Counted from the stretch's first letter, positions 1,983 to 40,628 are shown. The stretch: DNA of 52,541 nt from a virus (IMGVR_UViG_3300029258_002096:1-52541), one strand, 5' to 3'. Notes: generated from the letters alone by a model not told the origin. Program-made: numbers and translations.

Positions 1983-2042
1983 GCCCTAAATTTAGCATAA
2001 GCCGCGCGAAGGCATAGAAACAAATGCAAATATTTGTTATGT
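1983..2042. other. attC-like imperfect palindrome, weak example
   Basis: The left part (GCCCTAA, then AAATTTAGCATAAGC) pairs imperfectly with the right part (CAAATGCAAATATTT, then GTTATGT). The right outer box GTTATGT resembles the integron R' core GTTRRRY and is followed by GCCGAAACG, close to the tail GCGGCGAAACG of the site at 2338-2444. The left outer box lacks the usual AAC triplet, so this is the weakest of the full-length sites. Confidence 0.4.
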
Positions 2043-2062
2043 GCCGAAACGAAAGGGGTTTT

Positions 2063-2335
2063 ATGAAATTGAGAGAATACACAGATGAACAGATAGATAA
2101 ATATGGGAATGATTTTAACATAGATGTAATAAGAGAGGCTAATATAGATTTTAAAGAATGGTATGATCATAAAAAGTATCTTTGGAAAAAACCAACTAAA
2201 GATTTACCATGCCAAATATGTTATGAATGGCGGAGATTTCCAAAAGGACAAAGACATTTTGGGTATGCTTGGTGGAGAATTTGTAGTAAGGAATGTACGT
2301 GCTCCCACCATAAAGAAGAAGTGTGGATGGCATAG
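2063..2335 (+). CDS. Hypothetical protein with Cys-rich C-terminus
   Basis: Start chosen at ATG 2063 because GAAAGGGG lies just upstream; an upstream in-frame ATG at 2024 falls inside the preceding palindrome. 90 residues: a charged helical N-terminal half (LREYTDEQIDKYGNDF) and a C-terminal CxxC...CxxxCxC cluster with HH that could bind zinc. The function is not recognised. The stop TAG is two bases before the left box (ACATAAC) of the next attC-like site, so ORF plus palindrome form a cassette-like unit (about 2037-2438). Confidence 0.6.
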   Translation: MKLREYTDEQIDKYGNDFNIDVIREANIDFKEWYDHKKYLWKKPTKDLPCQICYEWRRFPKGQRHFGYAWWRICSKECTCSHHKEEVWMA

Positions 2336-2337
2336 GC

Positions 2338-2444
2338 ACATAACGTCTGTCATAATGTGCCGGTGGAGTTGTGAGGCTGAACCCGATTTCGGCGGATCTC
2401 TTCCTCGGTACAGGGCGGGGGTCACATTCATGACATTGTTATGC
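2338..2444. other. attC-like recombination site candidate
   Basis: The left outer box ACATAAC (2338-2344) is matched by the right outer box GTTATGC (2438-2444). The inner arms also pair: TGTCATAATGTG on the left against CACATTCATGACA on the right. The core is a GC-rich 60-base loop. This matches the attC order R''-L''-loop-L'-R', and GTTATGC is a typical R' box, as in Vibrio repeats. A covariance-model search would be decisive. Confidence 0.6.
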
Positions 2445-2478
2445 GGCGAAACGAAATTATAAAAAGGAGAAAATTGCA

Positions 2479-2736
2479 ATGTATGACTACAATGTTGAGA
2501 AAAAAAAGATATTTACGGATGAGGGACAACGTGAGTTTTTGAAAGTTAGAGATAAGGCAAGACAGCTTCTGGATGAGGGTGGGGCATTCATGATGTTTTC
2601 TGCGCTTACGGATATTTCCGGTGACACATCATGGACAATGATGGCTTATGTTGACAGGCTTGTTGAGCTTGGTGAAATACGTGAAATTACAAAACCTGGG
2701 GTTGCGGGGCAAGACCGAGTTTTTGTAGCCGCATAA
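2479..2736 (+). CDS. Small hypothetical protein, winged-helix-like
   Basis: 85 residues from ATG 2479 with AAGGAG upstream. Residues 20-75 read as helix, helix, recognition-like helix and hairpin (DKARQLLDEGG..., YVDRLVELGEIREI, then GQDRVFVAA), an outline of a winged-helix fold. That is an inference from pattern only. The stop TAA is the TAA within GCATAACG, the left box of a cassette-type half-site. Confidence 0.6.
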   Translation: MYDYNVEKKKIFTDEGQREFLKVRDKARQLLDEGGAFMMFSALTDISGDTSWTMMAYVDRLVELGEIREITKPGVAGQDRVFVAA

Positions 2737-2760
2737 CGTCAATGCTCTGCGGTGAAACGG
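2731..2760. other. Degenerate cassette-type half-site
   Basis: GCATAACGTC followed directly by AATGCTCTGCGGTGAAACGG. The second part resembles the right end of the 2338-2444 site (ATTGTTATGCGGCGAAACG) with the GTTAT core altered. It looks like a deletion derivative in which most of the palindrome has been lost. Confidence 0.4.
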
Positions 2761-2784
2761 CGGGGTAAGAGAAAGGATAAAAAA

Positions 2785-3147
2785 ATGGAATTTCCAGAAA
2801 TTGATAGAAAATCATGGTTTTATCAGAATTGCAAGCGTAATCGCAGGGTTGGTGCAAAGTGCTGTGATGTATGCCCTTTTAAGGAGGGTATTGAAGATCA
2901 GGAAAGCGGTGTTGGGCGGGTTTCATCCGTAGCAGCAACGGGTTATGCCGGGCCGGGCAGTGAGGAAGGGACGGGCTGGCGGCTTACTGACGAAGAAAAG
3001 CCGATGGAAGAAGGATACAAAATGTGTTCAAACGGAAAAGGATTGTTACCATTTTTCGCTATGTACAGGGACGGTAATTTTTATCTTGACATGGAATTTA
3101 CTATACCGAAATACTGGCAAGAATTACCTAAGCCGCCAGAGGCATAA
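2785..3147 (+). CDS. Cys-containing hypothetical protein with internal Gly/Ser-rich insert
   Basis: ATG 2785 is preferred because GAAAGGA precedes it by eight bases; an in-frame GTG lies at 2752. 120 residues: an N-terminal part with CCDVCPF (metal-ligand-like), a G+C-rich stretch coding for a Gly/Ser/Ala-rich linker (residues about 42-68, SGVGRVSSVAATGYAG), and a C-terminal aromatic part (FFAMYRDGNFYLDMEF). The linker bases are clearly more GC-rich than the rest. Function unknown. The stop TAA lies inside GCATAACG. Confidence 0.6.
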   Translation: MEFPEIDRKSWFYQNCKRNRRVGAKCCDVCPFKEGIEDQESGVGRVSSVAATGYAGPGSEEGTGWRLTDEEKPMEEGYKMCSNGKGLLPFFAMYRDGNFYLDMEFTIPKYWQELPKPPEA

Positions 3148-3180
3148 CGCTAATTATAACCGGCTTGAGGCCGGGAGGTA
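3141..3180. other. Cassette-type half-site with small hairpin
   Basis: GCATAACG, then ATAACCGGC, then a CCGGC-TTGAG-GCCGG hairpin leading directly into the ribosome binding site of the next gene. The left R'' and L'' boxes are present, but no GTT-type right box is visible, so this site would be incomplete if it is an attC. Confidence 0.4.
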
Positions 3181-3183
3181 AAA

Positions 3184-3519
3184 ATGGATTGGGAACAGAT
3201 AGTTCAAGAAATGCTTAGTTGTTATTCAAATAAAAAATATTGGTATAAACATTTAGTTGGAAGAAAATGGGATATTGTAAAAGTTGCAGAGCATTTGCAA
3301 AAAAAGTTTGGTGGGGCAAGTCCGGTTCATAATCAAGTTATGCCTGGCCGGGAAGATGCGGAGCGGAAGGGCAATCAGGGCGATATAATTGTCGGCAAGT
3401 ACAAACTTTGCGCTCATAATGCCGAAAACGGGCAAGTATGGCTTAAAGTGTGTAAGACTGGCGAAGGCGTTTTGCTCGGAGAGAAAGAAATTGAAGAATT
3501 ATATTTAAAACATTTTTAG
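3184..3519 (+). CDS. Hypothetical protein with internal polar insert
   Basis: 111 residues from ATG 3184 with GGGAGGT five bases upstream. The N-terminal half is helical and basic. Residues about 43-65 form a Gly/Pro/Asn/Glu linker (GASPVHNQVMPGREDAERKG) more GC-rich than its surroundings. The C-terminal half (IIVGKYKLCAHNAENGQVWL, then helix) looks like a small alpha/beta fold. No family recognised. The stop lies 11 bases before the attC-like site at 3531-3607. Confidence 0.6.
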   Translation: MDWEQIVQEMLSCYSNKKYWYKHLVGRKWDIVKVAEHLQKKFGGASPVHNQVMPGREDAERKGNQGDIIVGKYKLCAHNAENGQVWLKVCKTGEGVLLGEKEIEELYLKHF

Positions 3520-3530
3520 CCCTGATTGGG

Positions 3531-3607
3531 GCATAACGGCTTGCGTTTAACCGGCAGAGGCAAGGACGTGGGCAGGGTGGCTGTCCGTGTTCTAACGCTG
3601 GTTATAC
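3531..3607. other. attC-like recombination site candidate
   Basis: GCATAAC at 3531-3537 is matched by GTTATAC at 3601-3607. The inner arms pair as GCGTTTAACCGG on the left against CCGTGTTCTAACGC on the right, with mismatches and an extra base as expected of attC sites. 77 bases, within the known attC size range. Confidence 0.6.
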
Positions 3608-3646
3608 GGGTTTGCCCTTTACCCTAAAAATATAAAGGAATGAATT

Positions 3647-3958
3647 ATGTGTAAACATAAAAGACTTGAATTGCGGGGGCATATCAGACCCGAAAATTTA
3701 TCAAAAAATGATATGTGGATTTCGGATTTATCTTTGGTTTGCATGGATTGTGGAGCACATTTATTGTATACCCCTAACAACCTTAAAAATATTATTAATA
3801 TTCCACATCCAGATAAATCTAATTGCAAACACCCATCAAATGTATTATCCTATGATTTGTGTGGTTTCGGAAGATGGACGTGTCTACAATGTGGGGAAAG
3901 AGGTATTTCATCTCCAGCATCTAAATTGGAGATAAGAACCTCTTGCAAACACGTATAA
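3647..3958 (+). CDS. Cys/His-rich probable zinc-binding protein
   Basis: 103 residues from ATG 3647 with AAAGGA upstream. Two repeat-like units are visible, each with CKH at its start and CxxC later: MCKHKRL ... CMDCG, then NCKHPSN ... CLQCGERG, with a final CKHV. This spacing suits two zinc ribbons. The cellular role is unknown. The stop codon TAA is the TAA of GTATAACG, the left box of the next palindrome. Confidence 0.65.
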   Translation: MCKHKRLELRGHIRPENLSKNDMWISDLSLVCMDCGAHLLYTPNNLKNIINIPHPDKSNCKHPSNVLSYDLCGFGRWTCLQCGERGISSPASKLEIRTSCKHV

Positions 3959-4021
3959 CGGACTGGTAATAACCTGAAAAACCGCTACACTGAATTTTAG
4001 GTTATTATACAGACGTTTAAT
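3953..4021. other. attC-like recombination site candidate
   Basis: The left half GTATAAC + spacer + TAATAACCTGAAAA pairs with the right half TTTTAGGTTATTA + spacer + GTTTAAT. The inner arms are almost perfect over 13 bases. The right outer box GTTTAAT departs from GTTRRRY in one position. 69 bases. Confidence 0.55.
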
Positions 4022-4040
4022 TAATGGATGGGAATTCCAA

Positions 4041-4124
4041 TTGATATATGATAATATTGGAGATTATTGCAAGGAGGAAACTACCTTATTTAAGCTGTGC
4101 CCTTTTTGCGGGAAGCGTTTTTAA
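4041..4124 (+). pseudogene. Remnant of a zinc-ribbon protein
   Basis: The frame from TTG 4041 to TAA 4122-4124 encodes YC..., then LCPFCGKRF. This is the C-terminal half of the small phage zinc-ribbon type also seen at 6591-6884 (CPFCGNKI). No convincing start or ribosome binding site exists, and the frame is open upstream for a few codons only. It is probably the 3' end of a decayed gene between the last left-hand palindrome and the terminase operon. Confidence 0.35.
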
Positions 4125-4198
4125 TCAAAACGGTTGAAAATAGATAGGTTGTGGAAGTATGGAAATCCGTAAAACGAGAAGTAGTGGGGTGTAAGAAT

Positions 4199-4609
4199 AT
4201 GAAATATACTCAGGAAGTTGTTGATGCTATTGTAGCCAGCCTAAGAGAAGGCGTACCCATAAAAAAGGTATGCGATCTTGTGGATATTAGTGAGGAAACA
4301 TTTTATGCGTGGCAAAGAGAAAAACCTGAATTTTCTGAGGTTGTAAAAAAAGCGCGTGCTGATAAAATAAAAGATATTTTAAGCCATATACGTACAGCGG
4401 GTGTGGGTGAGACAAGGGTACAAGTTCAGTGCCCGGATTGCAAGGCTAAATTTGAAACAACAATCACTTTACCCACAAAGGCGTGGCAGGCATTAGCATG
4501 GATACTTGAACGAACGGAGAACGAGGACTTTGGACGTAGGTATCAAGTAGGCGGAGGCAAGGAACCCATTAAACATATTATAGAGTTTGTGGATGGAGAC
4601 GATACATAG
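4199..4609 (+). CDS. terS: Terminase small subunit
   Basis: 136 residues from ATG 4199; a GTG at 4151 would add 16 residues. The N-terminal 50 residues form a helix-turn-helix (VDAIVASLREGVPIKKVCDL, ISEETFYAWQREKPEFSEVV), as in phage small terminases that recognise packaging sites. A zinc-knuckle-like pair (CPDC) lies around residue 80. The 3' end overlaps the start of the large terminase, the usual order. It would load DNA on the motor for genome packaging. The identification rests on the HTH and the neighbouring gene. Confidence 0.8.
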   Translation: MKYTQEVVDAIVASLREGVPIKKVCDLVDISEETFYAWQREKPEFSEVVKKARADKIKDILSHIRTAGVGETRVQVQCPDCKAKFETTITLPTKAWQALAWILERTENEDFGRRYQVGGGKEPIKHIIEFVDGDDT

Positions 4610-5882
4610 GATAGTCATTCCTGGTTATACAAATCCCAAAACTGGAAAGAGACACGAAGAACAAAAGCGATTCGTTGAAAGTGCCACTAAAAGGAAAATC
4701 GTCAAAGCTGGAAGGCGTGGTGGCAAAACTATTGGGTGTGGGAAAATAGCATTACATGGGTTTAGAGATGGAAAGAGGGTATTATATGGAGCTCCTACAG
4801 TAGAACAGGTAGGGGCTTTTTGGCATTTCATTAATACGGTTTTAGAGCCTGTTATATCAGAGAAGATATTATTCAGGGACAAGAATTTACATATTATTGA
4901 AGTGCCAAATACGGATATTAGGATAAAGGCTAAAACGGCTTGGAATGCAGATACACTAAGGGGTGACTGGGCGGATATACTCATTCTTGACGAATTTCAA
5001 TTAATGAATGAAGACGCCTGGGAGATTGTTGGTGCTCCGATGCTTTTAGATAACAATGGTGATGCTGTTTTTATTTTTACCCCCCCAAGTTTTAGGATGA
5101 GGGGGGTTACTAAAGCCTTTGATCCCCGCCACGCTTCTAAAATGTTCAAAAAAGCACAGAAGGATACATCTGGTCGCTGGGAAGCATTTCATTTCACGAG
5201 TTACGCAAATCCATTTATTGACGAACGGGCCCTTGACGAAATTGCTATAGATATGACCCAACTTGCCTATAAGCAAGAAATCTTAGCCGAAGACATTGAT
5301 GACGTTCCCGGAGCCCTGTGGACACAAGCAATCATTGATAATACAAGAGTCAGTGAAGCACCAAGAATGAAAAGAATCGTTGTAGGTGTCGATCCCCAAG
5401 GAAAAAAGAAAGATTCATCGGAAACGGGTATTATTGTTGCTGGACTTGGGTATGATAATCATGGATACGTTTTGGCGGATTATTCTATTAATGCGAGACC
5501 GGAGGGGTGGGCTGAAAGCGTTACGCAAGCTTTTGAGGAAAACGAAGCAGACAGAGTTATCGCAGAAAAGAACTATGGTGGTGATATGGTCAAGAGTGTG
5601 ATTCAGTCAGCGGGGCCTAATTTACCCGTTAGATTGATAACAGCATCACGGGGCAAGACAATACGGGCCGAACCCATATCATTCCAATATGAAGAGGGAA
5701 ACGTACACCATGTTGGCATATTCCCAAAATTGGAAGATGAAATGTGTACCTATACACCCGGCAGCGGCTGGAGTCCCAATAGGATGGATGCCCTTGTTTG
5801 GGCGTTAAAGGAATTGTTACCCATAAAAGGCAGGGTATCTTCTTCTCCTGTCAAACTTGGTGAACCAAGACCCATAGATTAA
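4593..5882 (+). CDS. terL: Terminase large subunit (ATPase and nuclease)
   Basis: 429 residues from ATG 4593; a TTG two codons earlier would have no room for a ribosome binding site. Walker A is AGRRGGKT (residues 39-46) and Walker B is ILILDEF (129-135) with the catalytic Glu following Asp. The C-terminal RNase H-like nuclease begins at GVDPQGKKKDSSETG (about 265-280), with later acidic residues in the expected region (MDALVWALKEL near the end). It drives DNA into the prohead and cuts concatemers. It overlaps terS by 17 bases. The length is typical. Confidence 0.95.
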   Translation: METIHRIVIPGYTNPKTGKRHEEQKRFVESATKRKIVKAGRRGGKTIGCGKIALHGFRDGKRVLYGAPTVEQVGAFWHFINTVLEPVISEKILFRDKNLHIIEVPNTDIRIKAKTAWNADTLRGDWADILILDEFQLMNEDAWEIVGAPMLLDNNGDAVFIFTPPSFRMRGVTKAFDPRHASKMFKKAQKDTSGRWEAFHFTSYANPFIDERALDEIAIDMTQLAYKQEILAEDIDDVPGALWTQAIIDNTRVSEAPRMKRIVVGVDPQGKKKDSSETGIIVAGLGYDNHGYVLADYSINARPEGWAESVTQAFEENEADRVIAEKNYGGDMVKSVIQSAGPNLPVRLITASRGKTIRAEPISFQYEEGNVHHVGIFPKLEDEMCTYTPGSGWSPNRMDALVWALKELLPIKGRVSSSPVKLGEPRPID

Positions 5883-5919
5883 GAAGGGGGTTATTATAGA
5901 TACCAAATTAAATCAGGGG

Positions 5920-6141
5920 TTGTTAAACCTTGCACAACATATTACAAATATGTGCATAGAGGATTTGAGTGGAGATTCAAATAAATGGAATGTAGTCGGT
6001 GTTATTATTCCAGATGATACATTATTGGCAATTGTGAAATATGATAATGGGAAACAGGCAAGAATTACTGGATTGTGGGCATCTAAATTGAAGAGACTAA
6101 GTTGTGGGGATGGGGTTGATGATTCCGTCTCTGAAAAGTAG
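5920..6141 (+). CDS. Small hypothetical protein, start uncertain
   Basis: 73 residues if started at TTG 5920. The frame is open upstream, and the strong GAAGGGGG at 5883-5890 is better placed for a non-standard start at ATT 5893 or ATA 5896, which would add about eight residues. The protein has a helix (LAQHITNMCIEDL) followed by a beta-rich part (VVGVIIPDDTLLAIVKYDNG). Function unknown. It is downstream of terL in the same orientation. Confidence 0.5.
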   Translation: MLNLAQHITNMCIEDLSGDSNKWNVVGVIIPDDTLLAIVKYDNGKQARITGLWASKLKRLSCGDGVDDSVSEK

Positions 6142-6176
6142 CCGCCATAACAAATAGCTGAAGAAAGGAAAATGAC

Positions 6177-6374
6177 ATGACAGCAGGGGTAGAAAAGATT
6201 TGGGCTGTATATAAAAGATGTTGGCCGAATAGAATTGTGGCTTTATATAAGGACGAAGAAGCCGCATTAGAACATTCTAAAATCAGGAAAAATTACAAAA
6301 CAGAATGTTGGGCCGTATTTGAGAATTGTGACCAATCTATGGAATATTACATATGGAATATTAAAAATAGGTGA
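6177..6374 (+). CDS. Small hypothetical protein
   Basis: 65 residues from ATG 6177 with GAAAGGA upstream. Rich in Trp, Tyr and Lys; a beta-alpha-beta outline (IWAVYKRCWPNRIVALYKDE, EAALEHSKIRK, CWAVFENC) is plausible. No family recognised. Confidence 0.6.
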   Translation: MTAGVEKIWAVYKRCWPNRIVALYKDEEAALEHSKIRKNYKTECWAVFENCDQSMEYYIWNIKNR

Positions 6375-6414
6375 GGAAAAGTTTTTGATCTGGTTAAAAT
6401 AGTGAAAAGGGAAA

Positions 6415-6588
6415 ATGCGCGAAACAACCAAGGTGAGGCATGATGAAATCCGCCATGTGTTAGAGGGGCGGATAGAAACATTAAGGCAGCGTGGCGTACG
6501 TGATTACGTCCGGCGGGCTTGTGAGGATTTGTCCAAAGAGGTCGGCTATACAGCGAGGACATTAAGGGATTGGTACTATGAAATCTAA
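6415..6588 (+). CDS. Small helix-turn-helix protein (57 aa)
   Basis: ATG 6415 follows AAAAGG by five bases; stop TAA 6586-6588. The protein is highly basic and the C-terminal half (RRACEDLSKEVGYTARTLRD) has the outline of a helix-turn-helix. Its base composition is more GC-rich than its neighbours. It may be a regulator. The call is by pattern only. Confidence 0.55.
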   Translation: MRETTKVRHDEIRHVLEGRIETLRQRGVRDYVRRACEDLSKEVGYTARTLRDWYYEI

Positions 6589-6590
6589 TA

Positions 6591-6884
6591 ATGGAGCAAT
6601 GTTTGAAGATGAACAAATATAAAAAAATAAAAGAATGGATGTCTGAAACAAATAGCAGTAGCGGGTTAGTCAGTGGTGGGAATCAGGGAAAGGGTGGGCC
6701 ACAAAATGCGGGTGGGGTATGTAAATGGACATATCGAACACTTGGGGATTATGACCCATATCATACAACAAGTTGTGGAAATGATATAACATTACATCAG
6801 GGTTGTGAATGGGTTGAAACAGATTATAAATTCTGTCCTTTTTGTGGCAATAAAATTGTGGGGAAGCATTTTGTGTGTGGCTAA
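6591..6884 (+). CDS. Zinc-ribbon protein with Gly-rich linker
   Basis: 97 residues from ATG 6591; ATG 6609 is an alternative. After a short helix comes a Gly/Ser/Asn/Gln linker (residues about 20-42), then a zinc ribbon: VCKW, TTSCGND, GCEW, and the diagnostic CPFCGNKI. This is the common small phage protein type with TSCG and CPxCG pairs. Role unknown. The stop TAA is inside GGCTAACG, the left box of the next attC-like site. Confidence 0.65.
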   Translation: MEQCLKMNKYKKIKEWMSETNSSSGLVSGGNQGKGGPQNAGGVCKWTYRTLGDYDPYHTTSCGNDITLHQGCEWVETDYKFCPFCGNKIVGKHFVCG

Positions 6885-6954
6885 CGCCGCCAATAACCAG
6901 GCGGCTGAGGAGCGGAGCGACGAAGACGATCCGCGTTAATTAGCCTTGTTATGT
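6879..6954. other. attC-like recombination site candidate
   Basis: GGCTAAC at 6879-6885 matches GTTATGT at 6948-6954. The inner boxes CAATAACCAGGCGG and CCGCGTTAATTAG pair imperfectly. The loop contains GGAGCGGAGCGACG. 76 bases with the full R''-L''-L'-R' order. Confidence 0.6.
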
Positions 6955-6973
6955 TTTTACTTTGGAGATAACG

Positions 6974-7282
6974 ATGATTAGCAAAAAATTTGGGGAAGAT
7001 TTTAACAGCACCCGTGGCGCACTTACCTTGGATGTTTCAGAAGTAACGGACTCCGATGCTACGGGTGGAGTCCATACGAAAACACACGCAGACGGATGGA
7101 CAATTACAGGTGAAGTACACGAGGACTATTACACATGGGTTAATTCATTTAGTGCCACACACCCTGAATACGGAACGGTGGCTGGTGACTTTGAAGATGA
7201 AGTAACGGCAACCTCTGAGGAAGGGTTTAAGCACTTCTGGCAGCACCATCGGCCTACTGAGTGGGACTATAGTAATATTTAA
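6974..7282 (+). CDS. Hypothetical protein
   Basis: 102 residues from ATG 6974 (GGAG upstream), directly after the attC-like site. Acidic and aromatic, with a beta-rich outline (GWTITGEVHEDYYTWVNSF) and a His-containing C-terminus (FKHFWQHHRPTEWDYS). No family recognised. It is the last gene before the head-module promoter. Confidence 0.6.
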   Translation: MISKKFGEDFNSTRGALTLDVSEVTDSDATGGVHTKTHADGWTITGEVHEDYYTWVNSFSATHPEYGTVAGDFEDEVTATSEEGFKHFWQHHRPTEWDYSNI

Positions 7283-7345
7283 AACATAACATAAACGGCA
7301 TGCTTTAATGAAAAGAAATTAGGGCAGGATTGTAAATATTTTTTC

Positions 7346-7364
7346 TATACGTTATTTGCGTATA
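7346..7364. promoter_or_regulatory. Inverted repeat, operator candidate
   Basis: TATACG-ttatttg-CGTATA, six-base arms with a seven-base spacer, placed just upstream of the -35 box at 7370. The position suggests a binding site for a regulator of the head operon. The regulator is unknown. Confidence 0.4.
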
Positions 7365-7369
7365 CTTGC

Positions 7370-7398
7370 TTGACAAATTAATAATATAATATTAAATT
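7370..7398 (+). promoter_or_regulatory. Sigma70-type promoter of the head operon
   Basis: TTGACA at 7370-7375, a 17-base AT-rich spacer, and TAAATT at 7393-7398. It lies 41 bases before the TTG start of the portal gene. The 156-base gap 7283-7438 contains no gene. Confidence 0.6.
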
Positions 7399-7438
7399 AA
7401 TATCCGTTGAATGTTATCCTAATTCGGCGGAGTTTATT

Positions 7439-8791
7439 TTGGATATAAACATCTCGACTCGCCCCTTCAAGGTAAGATTGCGAAAACCCCAACCCCCTAA
7501 ACCCCAAAGACAGGCATCTGCAACATCGCAGACACGGGAAACCTACGAAAGTGGAATATCTATATTTAATGCCTATAATCCCCTGAAACACAACATGGGG
7601 GCCTACCGTGAATTGAGGGAAAAAATACCCTTCTTCAATGTAGCCATAAAGAAACTCGTACAGCTTATTGGTGACCCGATATTTGATTCTCCATCCGATT
7701 CCGTAAAAAAGAAAATAGAAGACTTTGTTCAAAAAGTTCAGGTAAATCGCTTTGGCAGAGGATTGGGTTCTTTCTTAGACGAATTAGAGGATTCAGCTTT
7801 TGAAGTGGGTGGTGGTTGGGGAGAACTTGTACCAACAAAAACAATGACAGATGTTCATCGTTTGAAAATAGCCTCTGCCGAATCTATGTGTTTTATAAAA
7901 GATGAAAAGACGGGCGAACTTGTTATCGGCACTTATAAAGACAATCATTTTATGCCACTGCCTGTTGAAAATATGGATTTGATTTATTACTTGGCTTTTG
8001 ATCGAAGACAGGGACATCCGCAGGGTTATAGCTTGCTTTATTCTTGTATGTGGCCGAGCCAGGCATTTTTGCGATGGGAAAAATCCTTTGAAAATCAAGT
8101 GCAGAGATTCGGGGATATATCTCTCGTCGGTGCTTTTGCCCCACCCGAGGGTGGAACCGTTGAGGAAGCAGATTATACAAGAGATAAATTCATGGAGCAA
8201 TTGGGTAAACTTTCAAAACTGAAAAGGCGCGGGAATGTAACCGATATCGGATTAAGTATACCGCCTGGTGGTACGTGGGATATAAAAACATTGGGCGCAG
8301 ATGCAAAGTTAATAGCAACCAAAGATTCCGTCAGAACGCTTTTAGAGCAATTGATCGCAAATACCGGCCTTCATCCTTCGTCCCTGGGAGTCCATTGGTC
8401 TACCTCCGAACGTATGTCGGTAATGCAAAATTTATTGCTAATGTCTAATCTCAACGCACAACGGGAACGGATCAATCCAATTGTTGAAAGAATTATCGAT
8501 ACCATGTTGGAGCTTACGGGTGATGCTGGAGCAGAATGGAGCATGAAATGGCCTGAAGTTATGTTATTGGGGGAAACCGAACGAGCCGATGCAAAAAAGA
8601 GCAATTGGGAAGCCATTAAAAATATGCTTGAAGCTCTTGAAATGGCTATTGCCTACGGATGGGCTGATGAAGAAAGTGCAAGGGAAACATTGGACAGAGA
8701 GGGTTTTGACGTAACTAAGTTACCGTCTAACTGGTATGCAAAGGTCAAAGAAAGATCGTATTTAGCAAGAATGGCAAGGGAAATAGAATAG
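7439..8791 (+). CDS. Portal protein
   Basis: 450 residues. The TTG start at 7439 is supported by GGCGGAG six bases upstream. The length, position between terminase and the Mu F-like gene, and internal features fit a phage portal: a basic Pro-rich N-terminus, AFEVGGGWGELVP, the stem region around IYYLAFDRRQGHPQGYSLL, and a long C-terminal helix set (LNAQRERINPIVERIIDTML). It would form the dodecameric ring for DNA entry at one capsid vertex. It is close to the DUF935/SPP1-like portals in style, but I cannot fix the subfamily. Confidence 0.85.
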   Translation: MDINISTRPFKVRLRKPQPPKPQRQASATSQTRETYESGISIFNAYNPLKHNMGAYRELREKIPFFNVAIKKLVQLIGDPIFDSPSDSVKKKIEDFVQKVQVNRFGRGLGSFLDELEDSAFEVGGGWGELVPTKTMTDVHRLKIASAESMCFIKDEKTGELVIGTYKDNHFMPLPVENMDLIYYLAFDRRQGHPQGYSLLYSCMWPSQAFLRWEKSFENQVQRFGDISLVGAFAPPEGGTVEEADYTRDKFMEQLGKLSKLKRRGNVTDIGLSIPPGGTWDIKTLGADAKLIATKDSVRTLLEQLIANTGLHPSSLGVHWSTSERMSVMQNLLLMSNLNAQRERINPIVERIIDTMLELTGDAGAEWSMKWPEVMLLGETERADAKKSNWEAIKNMLEALEMAIAYGWADEESARETLDREGFDVTKLPSNWYAKVKERSYLARMAREIE

Positions 8792-8825
8792 GGGGGAATG
8801 GAATGTCAACAAGAAGAGGATATTG

Positions 8826-9029
8826 TTGAAAAATAATTTAGGACAGGAACATAGAGTTTGTAAAAAATGTCCTATTCATCATGTAGAAAACTGTACCACC
8901 TGTTTTGGGTTTGGATTAAAAATTGTTAAAAATCGACAAATACCAATACGATGTGGTGAAGCCTGTGAACCGAAAAGATTGTTGAATTATCAAATTGTGC
9001 AATGTCCGGAGTGTGGTGGGCTTGCATAG
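8826..9029 (+). CDS. Cys-rich zinc-binding protein
   Basis: 67 residues from TTG 8826 (AGAGGA five to eight bases upstream; a second TTG is at 8823). Contains CKKC, HH, CTTC, RCGEAC and CPEC, enough for two zinc sites. It lies between the portal and the Mu F-like head gene. It could act as a translation regulator or a small structural factor; this is unproven. Confidence 0.55.
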   Translation: MKNNLGQEHRVCKKCPIHHVENCTTCFGFGLKIVKNRQIPIRCGEACEPKRLLNYQIVQCPECGGLA

Positions 9030-9132
9030 AGAATCATATAGATATATTTATTGTCAACATGAAGATACTTCGAGTGTTGTGTATACGCACCCTCCTAAAA
9101 AGCAAGGGGAGATAATTAAAGATGGACACTAA
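9022..9132 (+). CDS. Possible small protein (36 aa)
   Basis: The frame from TTG 9022 to TAA 9130-9132 overlaps both neighbours by a few bases, the usual packing here. GGTGGG precedes the start. The predicted peptide (HRESYRYIYCQHEDTS...) looks protein-like but has no recognisable family. If it is not real, the gap 9030-9121 is empty. Confidence 0.3.
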   Translation: MHRESYRYIYCQHEDTSSVVYTHPPKKQGEIIKDGH

Positions 9133-9301
9133 AGAATTACAAAGCAAAGTAGAAGAGATAGAACAAAATATTGGAAAGCAACTGAAGGAGCTGATAGACA
9201 ATGCGCCGGAAGTTAGAGACGTGCAAATTTATTTAGGAAAAAGTCTTTATACGATTGGTGGAATTAATGATTTTAGCGTAGACATTAAACTAATTATATG
9301 A
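9122..9301 (+). CDS. Small coiled-coil protein
   Basis: 59 residues from ATG 9122; the stop TGA overlaps the next ATG (ATGA). Residues 1-27 form a charged heptad-like helix (KELQSKVEEIEQNIGKQLKE), followed by a short beta-rich tail. Translational coupling to the Mu F-like gene suggests a head-assembly role, but nothing else supports it. Confidence 0.6.
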   Translation: MDTKELQSKVEEIEQNIGKQLKELIDNAPEVRDVQIYLGKSLYTIGGINDFSVDIKLII

Positions 9302-10353
9302 TTAATGCCCAACTTGACATCTCAATACATACAGACCGCTTGCGAAAAATAGCAATAGCCAAGGGTTTTGAAATACCCGACGGGCAGGGCGTATGTTGTT
9401 TTAAAGTTACAACTCCGAATTTCCATGAACTTGAACTTGCCAGTAGAAAACACCGTTGGCCTAAAATGCGAAAATTGCAAGCAGATTTCTTTAATGCTTT
9501 TATGGAAGAAGCAACAGAGCAAGAAATTGAGATTCTCAATATATTAGCATTACCGGATATAGAAACGGTTAGGCAGGCCGAGTTTACGGATGTGGATGAT
9601 GTGGGAGAGACGGGGAAATTCCGATACACGCTAATGATGAACGAAGAACTCGACCGTGTGTTTTATGAATGGCGTGAGGAGTTGTTGGGGACGGAAGCAG
9701 TAAAAACCGTCGATCCGATGTCGGCCACCTATCCGTTTCATCAATTATCTGCGTTTAGCATCGGGACTGATCAAGTCTTTAGGGATGCTTTGAGAGAGTT
9801 ACCGGATTATGTTGATTCCGAAGAACTTAAACGAAGACGTATTCAGGCAGCTTTAGATAATCCCTATTTACGTGCCGTAATCCGTGATGGTGGGAACAGG
9901 ATCAAGGAAGAGCTTGGTAAAAAGCATATTAGATTAATAAAAATTGCTTTACGGGAAAAAGCAAAAGAAGGACAAAACCCGCTTCAAGTTGCACGATGGC
10001 TTCATAAAGAGGTGGGGGAAGGCAAAGCTTGGTATTGGAGACGGCTCGCACGATCTGAATCCGTATTGGCAGCCGATGCTGCTTTTGAATCGAGCATAAG
10101 ACAATATCAAATCCCTTACGAACGCTGGAGTGCGGCTCCGACAGCGTGTCCTATATGTATGCAATTTCAGGGAAGAGTATGGTCGGCAGGACGAGGCCCG
10201 CATCCGGTATCGGATACGCACCCACACTGTCTTTGTGTTAGGCGAGTTGTTTACGTAACGGATAAACCGATACAGCGACCGTGGCAAAGAGAATCACCAT
10301 ATAGTAGACTATATACAAGAGAAGAGCTTGAAAACATAGAGTGGAGGATTTGA
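9298..10353 (+). CDS. Mu F-like minor head protein / head morphogenesis protein
   Basis: 351 residues from ATG 9298. The C-terminal third carries the Mu F/SPP1 gp7 signature: LARSESVLAADAAFES, then ACPICMQFQGRVWSAG, HPVSDTHPHCLCVRR, with paired Cys and His typical of the family. These proteins bind the portal and enter the head with the DNA in related phages. It sits next to the portal, as expected. Confidence 0.85.
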   Translation: MINAQLDISIHTDRLRKIAIAKGFEIPDGQGVCCFKVTTPNFHELELASRKHRWPKMRKLQADFFNAFMEEATEQEIEILNILALPDIETVRQAEFTDVDDVGETGKFRYTLMMNEELDRVFYEWREELLGTEAVKTVDPMSATYPFHQLSAFSIGTDQVFRDALRELPDYVDSEELKRRRIQAALDNPYLRAVIRDGGNRIKEELGKKHIRLIKIALREKAKEGQNPLQVARWLHKEVGEGKAWYWRRLARSESVLAADAAFESSIRQYQIPYERWSAAPTACPICMQFQGRVWSAGRGPHPVSDTHPHCLCVRRVVYVTDKPIQRPWQRESPYSRLYTREELENIEWRI

Positions 10354-15171: not shown

Positions 15172-17684
15172 AGCGATTAATCATCTTTCTTTTAATGATC
15201 GGATTTGCATTTCCGTTGTTCGCACAGAATCGTGAACCTTCCGGCTTTGGTAACGTGGGAACCTTCAAAAGTTGGATTAAGGATGGCTTAACTAACATAA
15301 CGATTTATGGGCTTACCCATGCAGGTGCCCTGACAGTCGGCGAAGACGATACTGGATATGACGTCAAGTTTTTCGGTGCCACATCCGGGAATTATGTTTT
15401 TTGGGATGAAAGCGAAGACCTGTTGAGCGTAGTACAGACCAACGCAAACACTTCTGGAACAGAGCGGGCTACAACAGTTACGCTAACCCAAACCGGCGCA
15501 GGTGCGATTTCTGAGGCATTTTACGCTAAAGTCATTGCAGATGTTCAAACCGGATCCTGGGTGAACGGAATTGTCGGACGAGTGGATTATAGTACAGGGT
15601 CTACCGGAGATGCGGGTGGCGGTATGGCGGCTGCGATTTGTGCCGAAATCAATTTACCAGCCAAGTCTCCGAGTGGTGGGGCTTATTATGCCTTTGATGC
15701 AGAAATTGAAGCTCCTGAAAACTTTTCGTCTATAACAAATCCGACATCATTCCCAATGGCATTTATGCGAACCGGCCTATGGGGAAACGGAACCGCAAAG
15801 GCGAATTGGGAAGATTACGGATATATCTTCCATTTCGATGACATCACGGATGCCTCCGGCAACGTCTGGTATGATAATACGTTAAGGTGTTTAATTAATA
15901 CCACTGCATTCTATATGGTTTTTTCCGAGGCAGAGGGCGAATTCCAGACACAGTATTTAATTGAGTCTACAAATACAACGGACGCATCAAGCACAACGGT
16001 TGCAGCGCTTCAGTCAGACGGCGGATTGGGAATTGCGAAACAGGCACATATCGGCACAGGTTTGACGGTCGGATATACTACCGCAGACGAAAATGAACCT
16101 GCTTTCAAGATTATTGGTGATGCTGATTCTGATGCGGCGGGTGATACCGATGATACGTTCCAAATCGCTATCACGGCAAATGCCACCCCTACAAATGCTA
16201 CGTGGGGGTTCACATCTACTCAAAGTGCTGGATATACGTTTGATAAAAAAATTGACCTTGCGGCGGGTTTAGATGTAGGAACTGATTTGGATGTTGACGG
16301 AACGGCAAATCTGGACAATACCGATATTGATGGAACGTTTGCAGCGGACGGGACTACTTTTGATGTCAATAGTACAACTTCCATGACGTTTGACAATTCT
16401 AACACGACGAACGGGATTGACATCAATACCGGAACATCGGGAAGCCCGGTTGACATTGGACATTCGACATCCGAAACAACCGTTGGTGACAATCTTACTG
16501 TCAATGGTGATGCCGATGTGGTCGGAGCACTTACGGGCGGAACGATTGCTTCTGATGCAACGGTCACGGCTGCTTCAACAATGTCAACCGGTGCTAACGC
16601 TGGAACATCTGGTCAAATTACGTTTATTGCGAGTGATAACGATCAAGGTACAGTAACAATCAACACATCTGATAATCTTGCATTTGCGGGTTTTGCTGGT
16701 GGCGTTGATGTAGATGGCGACTTTACCGCTGGAAGTGTTGCGTCAGATGCAGGAGTAAGCGGAACATCTGTAACCATAGCACCATCGGCTGCCGGTGCCG
16801 CAATTGATCTACAACTCGAAACTGAATGGGTGTCCGGCACTTTAATTGATGCTGATTTTGGCAGTGCTACTACGTTAGACGATGACGCCATTGGTTTTGA
16901 GATGGATTTAAATGGCAATGTTACCATGACAACTGACAAGGATGTTACCGCAATTAGCTTAAAGTTACCGGCGTTGAGCCAAACGGCAGCTAATACAACT
17001 GCGATTTACGGGTTAAATCTTAGTACGGCTGGAGCGTTAGTACAGAGTTCGGGTGCTGGAACAATAAATTGGCGTGGTGTGAATATACAAATGCCAAATA
17101 GCACTCAGACAACCGGAACAGTATCTTCGATTGGAATTGACATCGCTGGTGGAACATTAACAAGCGGGACAGCTTACGGTATTGATGTGACTGGATCGTT
17201 TACGCGGGGCGCACACATAGCAACAAGTATGGCAAACGCTAACGTTGGTGATGGATACGGTGCGGCGATTGAAGTTGATGTTACTACGACAGGAACAAAT
17301 GCAGGTCATCTCGCTGCTGCTTCAGCATGGGTAAACGTAAACAGTGCAGTGGCCGCAGGCGGGAATCTGGTTGCGGCTCGCAATGATGGTATCTGGGTTA
17401 ATACTGGTGATTCTGGCAACCTTACGAATGCCATTGCTATCTTCGGCGCACGAATGCACATGTTGAGCGCGGGAAACGAAACAGCTGCTTGCCCATTTAG
17501 TCTGAATGTTTCAGGCACTACGACGGATGCGCTGTTTTACCTTTATAACGAGGATGGAAGCACATCAATGGGCTATACTGCCGATGGAAATACCGGAGCA
17601 AATAAGATCGGAGCCGTACCCTTGTATATCGATGGGAATACCAGTACGAAATACTGGGTATATATCTACGATAATTACAATTAA
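15168..17684 (+). CDS. Large secreted fibre-like beta-repeat protein with signal peptide
   Basis: 838 residues. Residues 1-20 form a Sec signal peptide (KR, hydrophobic core, cleavage at FAQ|N). The rest is Thr/Gly/Asp/Ala-rich with short beta repeats such as GLDVGTDLDVDGTANLDNTD, typical of beta-helical fibres or adhesins. A signal peptide on a fibre-like protein inside a head operon is unusual; either it is exported to the envelope, or the hydrophobic N-terminus serves as an anchor in the virion. Shares style with the fibre at 33843. The precise role is not known. Confidence 0.7.
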   Translation: MKRLIIFLLMIGFAFPLFAQNREPSGFGNVGTFKSWIKDGLTNITIYGLTHAGALTVGEDDTGYDVKFFGATSGNYVFWDESEDLLSVVQTNANTSGTERATTVTLTQTGAGAISEAFYAKVIADVQTGSWVNGIVGRVDYSTGSTGDAGGGMAAAICAEINLPAKSPSGGAYYAFDAEIEAPENFSSITNPTSFPMAFMRTGLWGNGTAKANWEDYGYIFHFDDITDASGNVWYDNTLRCLINTTAFYMVFSEAEGEFQTQYLIESTNTTDASSTTVAALQSDGGLGIAKQAHIGTGLTVGYTTADENEPAFKIIGDADSDAAGDTDDTFQIAITANATPTNATWGFTSTQSAGYTFDKKIDLAAGLDVGTDLDVDGTANLDNTDIDGTFAADGTTFDVNSTTSMTFDNSNTTNGIDINTGTSGSPVDIGHSTSETTVGDNLTVNGDADVVGALTGGTIASDATVTAASTMSTGANAGTSGQITFIASDNDQGTVTINTSDNLAFAGFAGGVDVDGDFTAGSVASDAGVSGTSVTIAPSAAGAAIDLQLETEWVSGTLIDADFGSATTLDDDAIGFEMDLNGNVTMTTDKDVTAISLKLPALSQTAANTTAIYGLNLSTAGALVQSSGAGTINWRGVNIQMPNSTQTTGTVSSIGIDIAGGTLTSGTAYGIDVTGSFTRGAHIATSMANANVGDGYGAAIEVDVTTTGTNAGHLAAASAWVNVNSAVAAGGNLVAARNDGIWVNTGDSGNLTNAIAIFGARMHMLSAGNETAACPFSLNVSGTTTDALFYLYNEDGSTSMGYTADGNTGANKIGAVPLYIDGNTSTKYWVYIYDNYN

Positions 17685-18177: not shown

Positions 18178-19227
18178 ATGAAGAAGCCAAAACTCGCTTT
18201 TATTACTCATCACAATTGTGCGCGTGTCACAAAAGAAGCGTGGGTACTTAAAAATCTTGGTTATGAAATACGATTAATTTCTCATTTACCCAAAGAGTAT
18301 GATAAAAGTCTTTACGATAGCATCAATTATTATGAAACACCGGAAAAATTCAGATCAACAATAAAACTGTTCTTTGGCAAAGTTGATATATTCCATGTTC
18401 ACAACACGCCCGACTGGATGGCATGGACGATTCGAGAATTGAATCCAAAGGCAAAGATTATCCTTGATGTTCACGATTCTAATAGATGGCTTTTTGGCGA
18501 ACAGACGGTTGATGCTACGGGTGAAAAAGTAATATGGTACGATGAGGATATGGCTATTGGTTGCTCAAATGGATTGGTTTTGCCAAGTTTGGGTTGCCAG
18601 AAAGAGATAAAAACACGAACATCAAAACCTACAACTTTCATTCCTCCGGCCTGCCCGGAAGATTGGTATATAACAAAACCCCAGGGATTCTACGGTGGTG
18701 CCGTAATTAATGGTGGGGTCTCAATGGATGTAATAAACAGTGGAGAGATATGGAGGAATTATACGGATTTATGTAAGGCATTGAGAGGGAAATGTCAAAT
18801 ATATATGTATACGCCGTCTATTACAGCCCGTGCAGATGATAAATTGAATATTCACTACATGAATTTAGGATGCCGAATATCTAAAATGATGATGAGTTTG
18901 GTTATTGAGAAGTTAGGCGAACACTCGTGGAATATAGTAGGTAACTGGTTAGCTAATAACAAAAAAATAAAAGTATTTGATATTAATATGCCCAATAAAT
19001 TTTTTGACGCGGTTGCGGCTGGCATACCGTCAGTTTCATTTGGAGTGCAGGAGGTAAACAGACTTATTGAAAAATATGATATTGGGATAGTGGCCAATAC
19101 GCCGGATGAATTTATTGAACGATGGGATGAACACATACAAAAACGAACAAACCTTGCGATGCACAGGCGGAAGCTATCTATGGAAAATTTTATCGGAAAC
19201 CTAACCAAGTTTTATGATAATTTTTAG
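18178..19227 (+). CDS. Glycosyltransferase, GT-B fold (GT4-like)
   Basis: 349 residues. N-terminal domain: KLAFITHHNCARVTKEAWVL and FHVHNTPDWMAWTIRELNP, then IILDVHDS. C-terminal domain: KFFDAVAAGIPSVSFGVQEV, the acceptor/donor-binding Gly-rich element typical of GT4 enzymes, followed by NRLIEKYDIGIVANTPDEF. Such enzymes add a sugar from a nucleotide donor. In this context it may glycosylate a capsid or fibre protein, or alter host glycans. The substrate is unknown. Confidence 0.75.
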   Translation: MKKPKLAFITHHNCARVTKEAWVLKNLGYEIRLISHLPKEYDKSLYDSINYYETPEKFRSTIKLFFGKVDIFHVHNTPDWMAWTIRELNPKAKIILDVHDSNRWLFGEQTVDATGEKVIWYDEDMAIGCSNGLVLPSLGCQKEIKTRTSKPTTFIPPACPEDWYITKPQGFYGGAVINGGVSMDVINSGEIWRNYTDLCKALRGKCQIYMYTPSITARADDKLNIHYMNLGCRISKMMMSLVIEKLGEHSWNIVGNWLANNKKIKVFDINMPNKFFDAVAAGIPSVSFGVQEVNRLIEKYDIGIVANTPDEFIERWDEHIQKRTNLAMHRRKLSMENFIGNLTKFYDNF

Positions 19228-19235
19228 AAAACGCT

Positions 19236-19781
19236 ATGGAACAAAACAGCAAATATTATGACGAAGTTTACAGGTACTCTGAAGACTATAAAGTGCATTA
19301 TAGGCGATCACCATACTATCCTATTTGGAATGTTTTTGTAAAAAACATGAACCCCAAAATGAGAATCGTAGACTTGGGTTGTGGGCCTGGTCAATTTGCG
19401 AAATATTTACGGGATGAAAGTTTCCAAGATTATATCGGCATTGATTTTTCGCATGTAGCCATTGATATGGCGAAAAAATTAGTGCCGGATTATACTTTTA
19501 TTTGCGCAGACTTAAATACTTGTCCGTTGCCCGATGCAGACTATTATGTTTTGTCCGAAGTCTTGGAACACCTTGAAAAGGATATTGCTTTAATTCAAAA
19601 AATACCATTCGGCAAAAAAGTTGTTGCATCGGTTCCCTGTTTTGACAATCCTGCTCATGTAAGAACATTTAAAAATATAAACGATGTTACAAAAAGATAT
19701 GGAAAATATGTTGTGTTTGATGTACTTGGTCAAGTCGGATTGTTTTTTGTGTTTAGCGGAGAAATGAAAAGGGAATTCTAA
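19236..19781 (+). CDS. Class I SAM-dependent methyltransferase
   Basis: 181 residues from ATG 19236. Motif I VDLGCGPGQ (residues 45-53), motif II around YIGIDFS, motif IV-like ADYYVLSEVLEHLEKD. The length suits a short Methyltransf_11-type enzyme. It follows the glycosyltransferase by eight bases and could act on the same glycan or on a small molecule. DNA methylation is less likely because no target-recognition region is visible. Confidence 0.75.
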   Translation: MEQNSKYYDEVYRYSEDYKVHYRRSPYYPIWNVFVKNMNPKMRIVDLGCGPGQFAKYLRDESFQDYIGIDFSHVAIDMAKKLVPDYTFICADLNTCPLPDADYYVLSEVLEHLEKDIALIQKIPFGKKVVASVPCFDNPAHVRTFKNINDVTKRYGKYVVFDVLGQVGLFFVFSGEMKREF

Positions 19782-19795
19782 GAAAGGAGAAAGAA

Positions 19796-20146
19796 ATGAA
19801 AAGAGCATTAATTATAGTTTGTCTGATGATTTTATTTGGCTCGTCTGGATATGCACAGTCAAAACCTAACGAAAGCCGAACCGTACCTGCTGGACAGGAA
19901 CAAGCCGCTCGGATTAATCAAACTGAGGCTGATGAATACCAACGAGTCAAATCCGAATTGGAAGAAGCCCAGAAATTGATAGGGCAGTATACGATATATG
20001 TGTCCAAGCTCGAAAAGAACAACAAACAACTTGTTGATCTGCTTGAAATGTCTCGGCAGGTTCTAAGGGAATTGGCAAACGCCGAAACAATTGAAGAGCG
20101 TGACAAAATATTAGCAAAATATCAAATAAAGGAAGCTGATGGCTAA
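19796..20146 (+). CDS. Secreted coiled-coil protein
   Basis: 116 residues, GAAAGGAG upstream. Signal peptide at residues 1-20 (KRALIIVCLMILFGSSGYAQ), followed by a long coiled coil (EYQRVKSELEEAQKLIGQY, SKLEKNNKQLVDLLEM). An outer-membrane or periplasmic position is likely. It could be a spanin-like protein by topology, but the position before the connectors is unusual for lysis. The next gene overlaps by eight bases. Confidence 0.6.
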   Translation: MKRALIIVCLMILFGSSGYAQSKPNESRTVPAGQEQAARINQTEADEYQRVKSELEEAQKLIGQYTIYVSKLEKNNKQLVDLLEMSRQVLRELANAETIEERDKILAKYQIKEADG

Positions 20147-20636
20147 TATAACTGCTGCGCAAGTACAAGCAACTGGCGGATGGACGACTACCGAGGCTCC
20201 TGATGCAACCCTTGCCTTGGCTCCATATATCCCGGCTGGTGATGGTTGGTTGAATGAAATTCTATCTAATAAAGGAACCGACCTTACAACACTAACGGCT
20301 GCGGATGCCGACAAAGGGGCTTTAGCGTTAGCCGCCGAATGTTATTACGTAGCTCATTTATTTGCATCCAGACCATCAAAGAATGATTTCAGGGCGGGGC
20401 CAGTAGAATCTAAAAACAAAAAGGCTGCCGATATTGTCGGGAGCGCGGAATGGCTTCTAAAAAAAGCCAAAGAGATGCTTGCTAAAGCTGGTATAGTTTA
20501 CGAAAAATACGGAGCCGTGACTCACGGCGGAGACGATTATCATCCAGACGGTGACGAGAAAACACAGATTGACCTTGGCCTTGCCTATCAAGATAGCGAC
20601 GAAGAGTTGAATTTTCTTGGGGTTGATGACGGTTGA
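20139..20636 (+). CDS. Head-tail connector adaptor, gp6-like
   Basis: 165 residues. Starts with an Ala-rich part (ITAAQVQATGGW), has a helical core (ADADKGALALAAECYYVAHLF, KKAADIVGSAEWLLKKAKEM) and an acidic tail. The gene precedes other connector and tail genes, as gp6-type adaptors do. The call rests mainly on order and size. Confidence 0.55.
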   Translation: MANITAAQVQATGGWTTTEAPDATLALAPYIPAGDGWLNEILSNKGTDLTTLTAADADKGALALAAECYYVAHLFASRPSKNDFRAGPVESKNKKAADIVGSAEWLLKKAKEMLAKAGIVYEKYGAVTHGGDDYHPDGDEKTQIDLGLAYQDSDEELNFLGVDDG

Positions 20637-21106
20637 GCTACAGAGATCAATTTCTTTTATGGTTGGCAACTGACGATCTTGCGGAGACTGCCACGCTAAC
20701 AACGGTCACGGGAGATACTTGTCCCTGTATGGAACAGGGTCGAAAGAATTATTCTCCCGACTGGCACGTTGCAAATCCGGGAGAAGATGATTGTGAGGGC
20801 ACTGGTTTAATTAATACCAGCACTACGACAATTAACATTAAGGCGGTGTTTTCTCCGGTTGGGCTTGCGGGAAATAGTATACCAACGATGAAAGAATTTA
20901 TCGAAACTATTGGGGAAATCCAGAAAGACGATCTCTTTTTGTGGGGGACGGTAAATACGGCCGACGGCTCGTTTGCCGATTTGTCGGGGAAAAGCGAATA
21001 TACGGATTATATCACAAAAGATTCAAAGAAATATTTAATAAGGGATGTTTCCGATATTCCCGCAAGTGTAGGACAGGTTGCCCATTTAGTGAGGAGGAGG
21101 GCTTAA
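20633..21106 (+). CDS. Head closure / connector protein
   Basis: 157 residues from TTG 20633, overlapping the previous stop. N-terminal LLWLATDDLAETATLTT; a central Cys pair (TCPCMEQGRKNYSPDWH); and a beta-rich C-terminus (FAD, DYITKDSKKYLIRDVSDIP), fitting small head-closure proteins in order and length. The identification is tentative. Confidence 0.5.
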   Translation: MSYRDQFLLWLATDDLAETATLTTVTGDTCPCMEQGRKNYSPDWHVANPGEDDCEGTGLINTSTTTINIKAVFSPVGLAGNSIPTMKEFIETIGEIQKDDLFLWGTVNTADGSFADLSGKSEYTDYITKDSKKYLIRDVSDIPASVGQVAHLVRRRA

Positions 21107-21546
21107 TGGAAAAGTTGGTTGACACAAGCAGATTTATCCTTAAAAGCAGGGCTGTAAAGTTAGCTCTTGCTAAAGCTGGAGCGCGGGAGATACTTAAGGG
21201 TGCACAGGAGATATACGACGCAGCCGACAAGAATCTTTCCGGCCCGCATTATAAACCAGGCCAGCCACACAAAGCCACTATGCCCATTGCACGGATTACA
21301 GGTAACTTGTCCAATTCGTTGAAGCTGACTCCGTTGTCGAGTACGGTTGTAGCTGTTTGGTCTGATCCCAAAATAGCAAACTATAACAGATATGTTCATG
21401 ACGGCACAAAGGGGAAAAAGGGGAAAAGGAAGCGAATGAAACCCCGACGCTTTATTGGAGCTCCTGTAAACGAGAGACGACCCGCTATACAGGGTAGAAT
21501 CAGGCGACAGGTTTTGCTTGCGATACGCAAAGACGGGCGAACATAA
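21106..21546 (+). CDS. Tail completion / neck protein (HK97 gp10- or Mu G-like)
   Basis: 146 residues. Start chosen at ATG 21106, which overlaps the previous stop and follows GAGGAGGAGG. Contains the pattern of such proteins: a helical N-terminus, TGNLSNSLKLTP with GPHYKPGQPH upstream, a Tyr-rich NYNRYVHDGTKGKKGKRKR, and RRFIGAPVNERRPAI. It would join tail tube and head. Reasonable by pattern and order. Confidence 0.65.
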   Translation: MEKLVDTSRFILKSRAVKLALAKAGAREILKGAQEIYDAADKNLSGPHYKPGQPHKATMPIARITGNLSNSLKLTPLSSTVVAVWSDPKIANYNRYVHDGTKGKKGKRKRMKPRRFIGAPVNERRPAIQGRIRRQVLLAIRKDGRT

Positions 21547-40149: not shown

Positions 40150-40536
40150 ATGGAAACCGTGACAAGTAACGACCCAAATGTCAGACTCACGATTAAAACG
40201 AACATCCAATTTAAAACCCTCGACGAAACCAAGCTCGACACAATCAAGCCTGTTGAACTGGCAAATGCTTTCCGGGCACTTGCCAATGGTATTATCGGTA
40301 GTTCTATGTATCTTTCGTCTGTCGGCGGCAAACCATGTGGCGTACCGACTCAGACACCGACTACATTGGCCTCCGCAAATATTGGCGACGGTCTGGTTGG
40401 CATCACACGGTTGGAACCCGGCCAATACCAGCTTACCATCAAGCGCGTCGTGGAGGCAGAATGTTACCATAATGGCAGTATCTCGCGCAGCCACAAGGCC
40501 GTCCACACGGATGACGGATGGCAGAAAGTGGGGTGA
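40150..40536 (+). CDS. Hypothetical protein
   Basis: 128 residues from ATG 40150, TTGGAGGA six bases upstream. Thr/Val-rich N-terminus (VRLTIKTNIQFKTLDETKLD), a helix (VELANAFRALANGIIG), and a beta-rich C-terminus (GVPTQTPTTLASANIGDGL, RLEPGQYQLTIKRVVEAECY). First gene after the regulatory gap. No family recognised. Confidence 0.6.
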   Translation: METVTSNDPNVRLTIKTNIQFKTLDETKLDTIKPVELANAFRALANGIIGSSMYLSSVGGKPCGVPTQTPTTLASANIGDGLVGITRLEPGQYQLTIKRVVEAECYHNGSISRSHKAVHTDDGWQKVG

Positions 40537-40627: not shown

Positions 40628-40628
40628 C

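Follow-up and report, generated by a model that had tools for sequence, protein, structure and literature searches.

An accessory region of the uncultivated tailed phage recorded in IMG/VR as IMGVR_UViG_3300029258_002096 is probably a partly decayed integron cassette array, that is, a cluster of attC sites without an integrase (CALIN), in which the genes run antiparallel to their attC sites and whose cassettes would be served by an integrase supplied in trans and expressed from phage promoters. The window analyzed here is the whole of this virus record, 52,541 bases. Phage-borne attC arrays are already published: 17 CALINs and three complete integrons have been reported in phages, and five of six phage attC sites tested recombined with IntI1 (Qi et al. 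2023, PMC9892861), which corrects the statement, made in a reading of this DNA from its sequence only, that no such array was established. What is unusual here is the polarity, every cassette gene being antiparallel to its attC, and this polarity-reversed variant is common to the window and other phages. A search of open-licence papers found no description of arrays with genes systematically antiparallel to attC.

The phage context is provided by portal, head and tape-measure genes and by the small and large terminase genes (4151–4609 and 4587–5882, both plus strand) that adjoin the array. Small plus-strand ORFs occupy two zones, one at 2.0–4.0 kb upstream of the terminase and the other at 49.5–52.4 kb, the far end of the record; nearly none of the small ORFs of either zone has a database match, and an Rfam search of the window returned no matches. 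Circular permutation might join these two halves of the array; a search for contigs that bridge the window's end and its start found none. There are no near matches to the record among cultured phages, the sole near relative found being a metagenome contig of identical sequence, so that no close relative shows gain or loss of units, and no attC matches were found near the terminases of relatives up to 58% identical. The 52.5 kb record, possibly incomplete, contains no match to PF00589 or TIGR02249, so the attC cluster is classed as a CALIN and not as a complete integron. Elsewhere in the window, an 89-nt tRNA-Val (gac) gene lies in a small-gene region (42401–42489), and a gene for a pentapeptide-repeat protein (40518–41623; Pfam 1e-47) neighbors one for a pyrimidine dimer DNA glycosylase (2e-13).

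Sites were identified with covariance models and a grammar scan. Model R1 was built from 27 attC sites close to integron integrases of bacteria, the phage contig L107 supplying one, and R3 is a wider model with a background maximum of 13.7 bits; neither was trained on any site of the window. The two best R1 matches in the window are 50023–50080(−) (18.3 bits, E=0.005) and 50384–50440(−) (16.1 bits, E=0.022), the third reaching only 8.7 bits, and the same two sites scored 32.9 bits (E=1.7e-5) and 23.0 bits (E=0.0038), respectively, with the held-out R3. They form a CALIN by the definition of at least two model matches above background within 4 kb. The scan, which looks for R boxes, spacers of 5/6 nt and an L box with one extrahelical base, recovered three attC sites in phage TJE1, equal to the published count for its CALIN, and ranked 2338–2444(−) first (12.2) and 50023–50080(−) second (10.1) in the whole window; in 60 dinucleotide shuffles no score of at least 11 occurred, and scores of at least 10 occurred at 0.017 per window. 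Bottom-strand folds were stronger than those of shuffled sequences at 49531, 50023, 50384, 2338 and 3953 (z −2.5 to −3.9). The complete attC anatomy (R″, spacer, L″ with extrahelical base, loop, L′, spacer, R′) is present at 2338, 50023, 50384 and 49531, and in part at 1983, 3531 and 3953. A generic inverted-repeat test across all window genes did not distinguish the array significantly (p=0.16–0.29).

The window's best attC sites, 49531, 50023 and 50384, lie at the opposite end from the interval (1983–4021) to which the sequence-only reading had confined the array. The first, 49531–49600(−), has R″ ATATAAC and R′ GTTATAT and scored 20.0 bits with model R2, from whose training set it was absent (scan 8.1; fold z −3.9). 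The ATG of the 140-aa ORF 49570–49992(+), a weak zinc-ribbon-like match, lies together with an SD inside the loop of this site, and the L″/R″ arm encodes the N-terminus of the protein, MTVRVNPDVIC. The best attC of all, 50023–50080(−), reads GTATAAC AAAAG TTT[G]CAGCGG ... GTTCGGC (fold z −2.8) and is followed by ORF 50108–50389(+; 93 aa), which has its stop within GTATAACG and perfectly complementary flanks, GTTATACGGC and GCCGTATAAC, and then by 50384–50440(−) (fold z −3.6). Beyond these are two ORFs (50470–50976 and 51012–51425, both plus), the second with its stop in GCTAACG, a half site consisting of R′-L′ alone (51421–51445, minus; plus strand GCTAACGTCCAGTAATAACCGGC) and a degenerate half site (52382–52418, minus; plus strand ..AACACTAACATGAATAATAACCGGC); a further degenerate half site is found at 131–165.

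At the other end, the plus-strand motif RYATAACG recurs at 2338, 2731, 3142, 3531 and 3953, spaced by 389–422 bp and each time at or just past an ORF stop. The stop runs directly into TAACG in 5 of 12 array ORFs versus 2 of 67 other ORFs (Fisher p=0.0006). Four palindromes had been listed here as attC sites, and all four exist where they were placed, with the right boxes GTTATGT (2036), GTTATGC (2438), GTTATAC (3601) and GTTTAAT (4015), but their standing is uneven. One of them, 2338–2444(−), is a textbook attC, GCATAAC AATGT CAT[G]AATGTG ... CACATT ATG ACAGAC GTTATGT, with spacers of 5/6 nt, an extrahelical G, 8/8 pairing of the L box and a fold z of −2.5. Less convincing are 3531–3607(−), attC-like but weak (scan 6.9; fold z −1.2), and 3953–4021(−), a strong hairpin (fold z −3.6) with R′ GTTATAC, a divergent R″ ATTAAAC and a scan score of 3.5; 1983–2042 comes down to a pair of boxes at 1995–2042(−) (R″ ACATAAC, degenerate R′ CTTATGC) without the L-box stem (fold z −0.4). 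With both R1 and R3 all four stay within background (9.8 bits for 2338–2444 with R3, against 13.7), and they do not amount to a CALIN by themselves. Two further box sites within the interval had been overlooked, a truncated site at 2731–2752(−) (R″ GCAGAGC, 6 nt, R′ GTTATGC, without L boxes) and an R′-L′ half site at 3142–3164(−). The cassette ORFs between these sites, all on the plus strand, are 2063–2335 (flanks GTTATGTGCC and GGCACATAAC), 2479–2736 (stop within GCATAACG; flanks GTTATGCGGC and GCCGCATAAC), 2785–3147 (stop likewise within GCATAACG), 3184–3519 and 3647–3958 (a weak zinc-ribbon-like match; stop within GTATAACG; flanks GTTATACGGGTTTGC and GCAAACACGTATAAC). A weak attC-like candidate at 6879–6954(−) (score 5.9), also outside the original interval, lies between the terminase and portal genes; ORF 6591–6884 stops in its GCTAACG and the nearby gene 6974–7282 has flanks TGTTATGTTTT and AAAACATAACA, which suggests that 6879–7290 is a second place of cassette insertion.

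All four units of the window in which polarity could be scored from ORFs are antiparallel to attC, and none has the parallel arrangement of a standard cassette. Chromosomal and class 1 integron arrays are like the window in attC anatomy, in R′/R″ complementarity within each cassette and in units of about 300–1000 bp, but almost all of their units have the gene parallel to attC: 21 of 22 units were parallel in 299 Pseudomonadota genomes, as were 29 of 35 near IntI1-type integrases, where intI itself accounts for two of the three antiparallel calls.

Reversed arrays were found in other phage contigs. The pattern GTTATGYGSCGAAACG yielded no attC arrays among its IMG/VR matches beyond the window's own contig, consistent with chance. 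The pattern TTGTTATRCGGCGAA led to one further array, G001 (locus L212), on a 62.5-kb phage contig with portal-like PHROG matches, whose roughly 15 sites fall into two clusters, one on each strand, and the polarity-neutral pattern TAACAANNNNNTGNAACGGAGC, taken from one attC arm, revealed sites, single or in arrays, on eight additional contigs. Where these eight have at least two sites, 16 units are antiparallel, none parallel and three unclear (Fisher p=8e-10 against the Pseudomonadota genomes). By contig, antiparallel units number 12/13 in G001, 5/5 in G004, 5/7 in G005 (two unclear), 3/4 in G006 and 1/1 each in G007, G009 and G010. Parallel units predominate in the phages Rctr41k (5/5), TJE1 (2/2), M16-3 (6/6) and Vibrio p16 (3/4), and polarity judged by ORF length is ambiguous in G002 (1:1) and in MW202573, which scores 2:1 parallel though its annotated genes all oppose attC. 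A DNA methyltransferase gene in G001 (MELQNNATGAPLHPIVTMPFAPYY...) and a C5-type methyltransferase gene in G006 (MPPEKTSTATSDQPIVRVPLTFGSLFAGIGGFD...), their types assigned by motif inspection and not by family search, both start inside an attC loop; being of recognizable type, they confirm that gene direction is opposite to attC. With the start codon inside the loop, the attC of these related phages also encodes the first residues of the protein.

Two of the reversed phage arrays are accompanied by integrase genes. In G006 the gene lies at 15686–16705(−) (TIGR02249, 310 bits; cut-off 265) and the array at 18183–21727, with attC on the plus and genes on the minus strand. The Mu-like G002 (L107; IMGVR_UViG_3300047678_000840), recognized by GemA (2e-30), a MuA-like rve and a MuB-like AAA protein, carries a complete-looking integron, with the integrase gene (TIGR02249, 434 bits) between the cassettes and the gemA gene, three attC sites on the minus strand, and genes and intI on the plus strand. 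In both contigs the orientation of attC to intI is the usual one, and the genes face toward intI in the same direction as intI.

The phages of Qi et al. (TJE1, P12002L, PH101, MW202573, M16-3 and V. anguillarum p16) resemble the window in having attC clusters between small phage ORFs, mostly without an integrase. Genes are parallel to attC in TJE1, M16-3 and p16, unlike in the window, whereas our scan places annotated genes against attC in MW202573 and at one site of P12002L, as in the window; the study's own remarks on this are limited to “divergent directions” and “multiple ORFs” (PMC9892861). The reverse integrons of Treponema denticola, Chlorobium phaeobacteroides and Blastopirellula marina have intI and cassette genes in one direction, with intI facing attI and the array downstream of intI (PMC3607928, PMC6557892). 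G002 and G006 are similar in that cassette genes and intI share direction, but their arrays lie upstream of the intI start in the usual attC-to-intI orientation with the genes flipped, and they are not reverse integrons of the Treponema type, for which genes parallel to attC are a further defining trait. Virus Rctr41k (L280, KX853513), from a methane-oxidizing enrichment, is like the window group a phage with attC sites, six in number, has in addition an integron-integrase-like gene, and differs from the window in that its genes are parallel to attC. At 4680–10101 this gene, annotated xerD, is followed by the six sites with matching boxes. The locus looks like a complete integron in the reverse (Treponema-like) arrangement and is missing from the complete integrons of Qi et al. 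(PMC9892861).

The usual account of cassette orientation refers to the Pc promoter of the integron, from which cassettes are expressed. All-reversed arrays would mean that integron recombination can serve phages independently of Pc promoter logic, and they point to a phage-specific cassette pool, including the DNA methyltransferases in G001 and G006; searches that assume standard polarity would misannotate such cassettes, and accessory-gene exchange between phages via integron integrases becomes testable. The reversed layout may have arisen as an adaptation of phages or may derive from an unsampled bacterial lineage. A farther-reaching reading, to which we give a little below an even chance, is that phages of several lineages own a back-to-front class of integron in which attC serves as a 5′ leader, often with the start codon, the cassettes fit a one-directional operon, and phage IntI moves them, in some cases supplied in trans to phages like the present one. 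Rather unlikely is that reversed polarity is the ordinary chromosomal layout of an unsampled host phylum, passively acquired by phages and not specific to them. The G001-type attC sites (TAACAANNNNNTGNAACGGAGC) are one sequence family, suggesting one lineage, and the bacterial comparison covered Pseudomonadota genomes and IntI1 relatives alone; however, the site sequences of the window are unlike the G001 family, and the cassettes of G002 include reversed genes although the bacterial relatives of its IntI (59% identical to class 1 IntI1) are parallel.

The two ends of an integron cassette match each other: the six bases that follow the cut on one side are complementary to the R″ on the opposite side. 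Three of the four attC-bounded units in the window are perfect in this respect, with 10-nt complements GTTATGTGCC (2036)/GGCACATAAC (2344), GTTATGCGGC (2438)/GCCGCATAAC (2737) and GTTATACGGC (50074)/GCCGTATAAC (50390) that differ from each other, and GTTATACGGGTTTGC (3601)/GCAAACACGTATAAC (3959) is complementary at 14 of 15 positions. Pooled over the antiparallel phages, 33 of 41 box pairs are perfect within cassettes versus 3 of 54 within sites, and 10,000 permutations of the pairs gave a mean of 3.3 and a maximum of 13, none reaching 33. Boxes within one site often mismatch, as at 50023 (R″ GTATAAC, R′ GTTCGGC); the R″ of the next site, 50384 (GCCGAAC), complements the R′ of 50023, and its own R′ is GTTATAC. 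A perfect pair would result if the 50108 unit were excised at its predicted cut points, so that the swapped boxes suggest one past insertion of this cassette. Held-out model matches, canonical anatomy and complementary boxes in each unit together bear out the original proposal of attC-like cassettes. The array is partly decayed: no complementary R″ accompanies genes 2785 and 3184, in two of the seven units, and there are several half sites. The half sites, the position of sites at gene ends and the absence of an integrase in cis are also what would be seen if attC-derived hairpins had been retained as transcription terminators or translation-control elements after recombination was lost. We regard this as improbable, since the perfect complementarity spans genes and not hairpins, and the box swap at 50023/50384 is the trace of a cassette insertion.

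For a cassette array of reversed polarity, we infer the following route of recombination and expression. Each unit consists of one small gene and one attC at the gene's 5′ side, antiparallel to it. The bottom strand of attC, which is the phage coding strand, would fold once single-stranded, and an integron integrase from the host or a co-infecting phage, acting in trans, would cut at RYYYAA↓C and insert or remove units at G↓TT. Being reversed relative to attC, the genes would be read with the phage operon from phage promoters instead of Pc. The suggestion that the units might be a phage-adapted modular system using a host integrase gains new support from the systematic gene inversion in several phage contigs, two of them with their own IntI.

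The sequence-only reading had attC and its box order running with the genes on the plus strand, and the outer boxes alone are symmetric enough for either reading. This is now very unlikely. In known attC sites (alignment A1), A or C usually comes after R″, R′ has a C in front of it and L″ is the arm with the extrahelical base, a pattern which the window's sites follow solely on the minus strand: CGTT marks R′ in all complete sites, the base after R″ is A or C (AACA/AACC) in five of six sites (the exception being 3953–4021), and L″ carries the extrahelical base, in agreement with the aadA7 site. Strong model matches are likewise confined to the minus strand, and the start codons within attC in other phages link the hairpin to its gene in the reversed arrangement. 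The top strand of attC is therefore the minus strand of the window, which puts the cut point in the box at a gene's stop codon and assigns the hairpin 5′ of a gene to that gene's unit. Chance palindromes between small ORFs, which 1983–2042 and 3531–3607 would resemble if taken alone, as neither exceeds shuffled sequences, are the least credible account of all, contradicted by the scan against shuffles, the held-out model and the box complementarity.

The protein encoded by ORF 50108 has homologues in seven other viral contigs, around which no attC model matches were found. On the 334-kb contig IMGVR_UViG_3300049436_000052 (L226), a homologue with 78% identity at 3800–4300 has the flanks GTTAGCGTT and AACGCTAAC, and the resemblance, while only suggestive, is such that this locus of a large, AT-rich phage may be an attC-like cassette.
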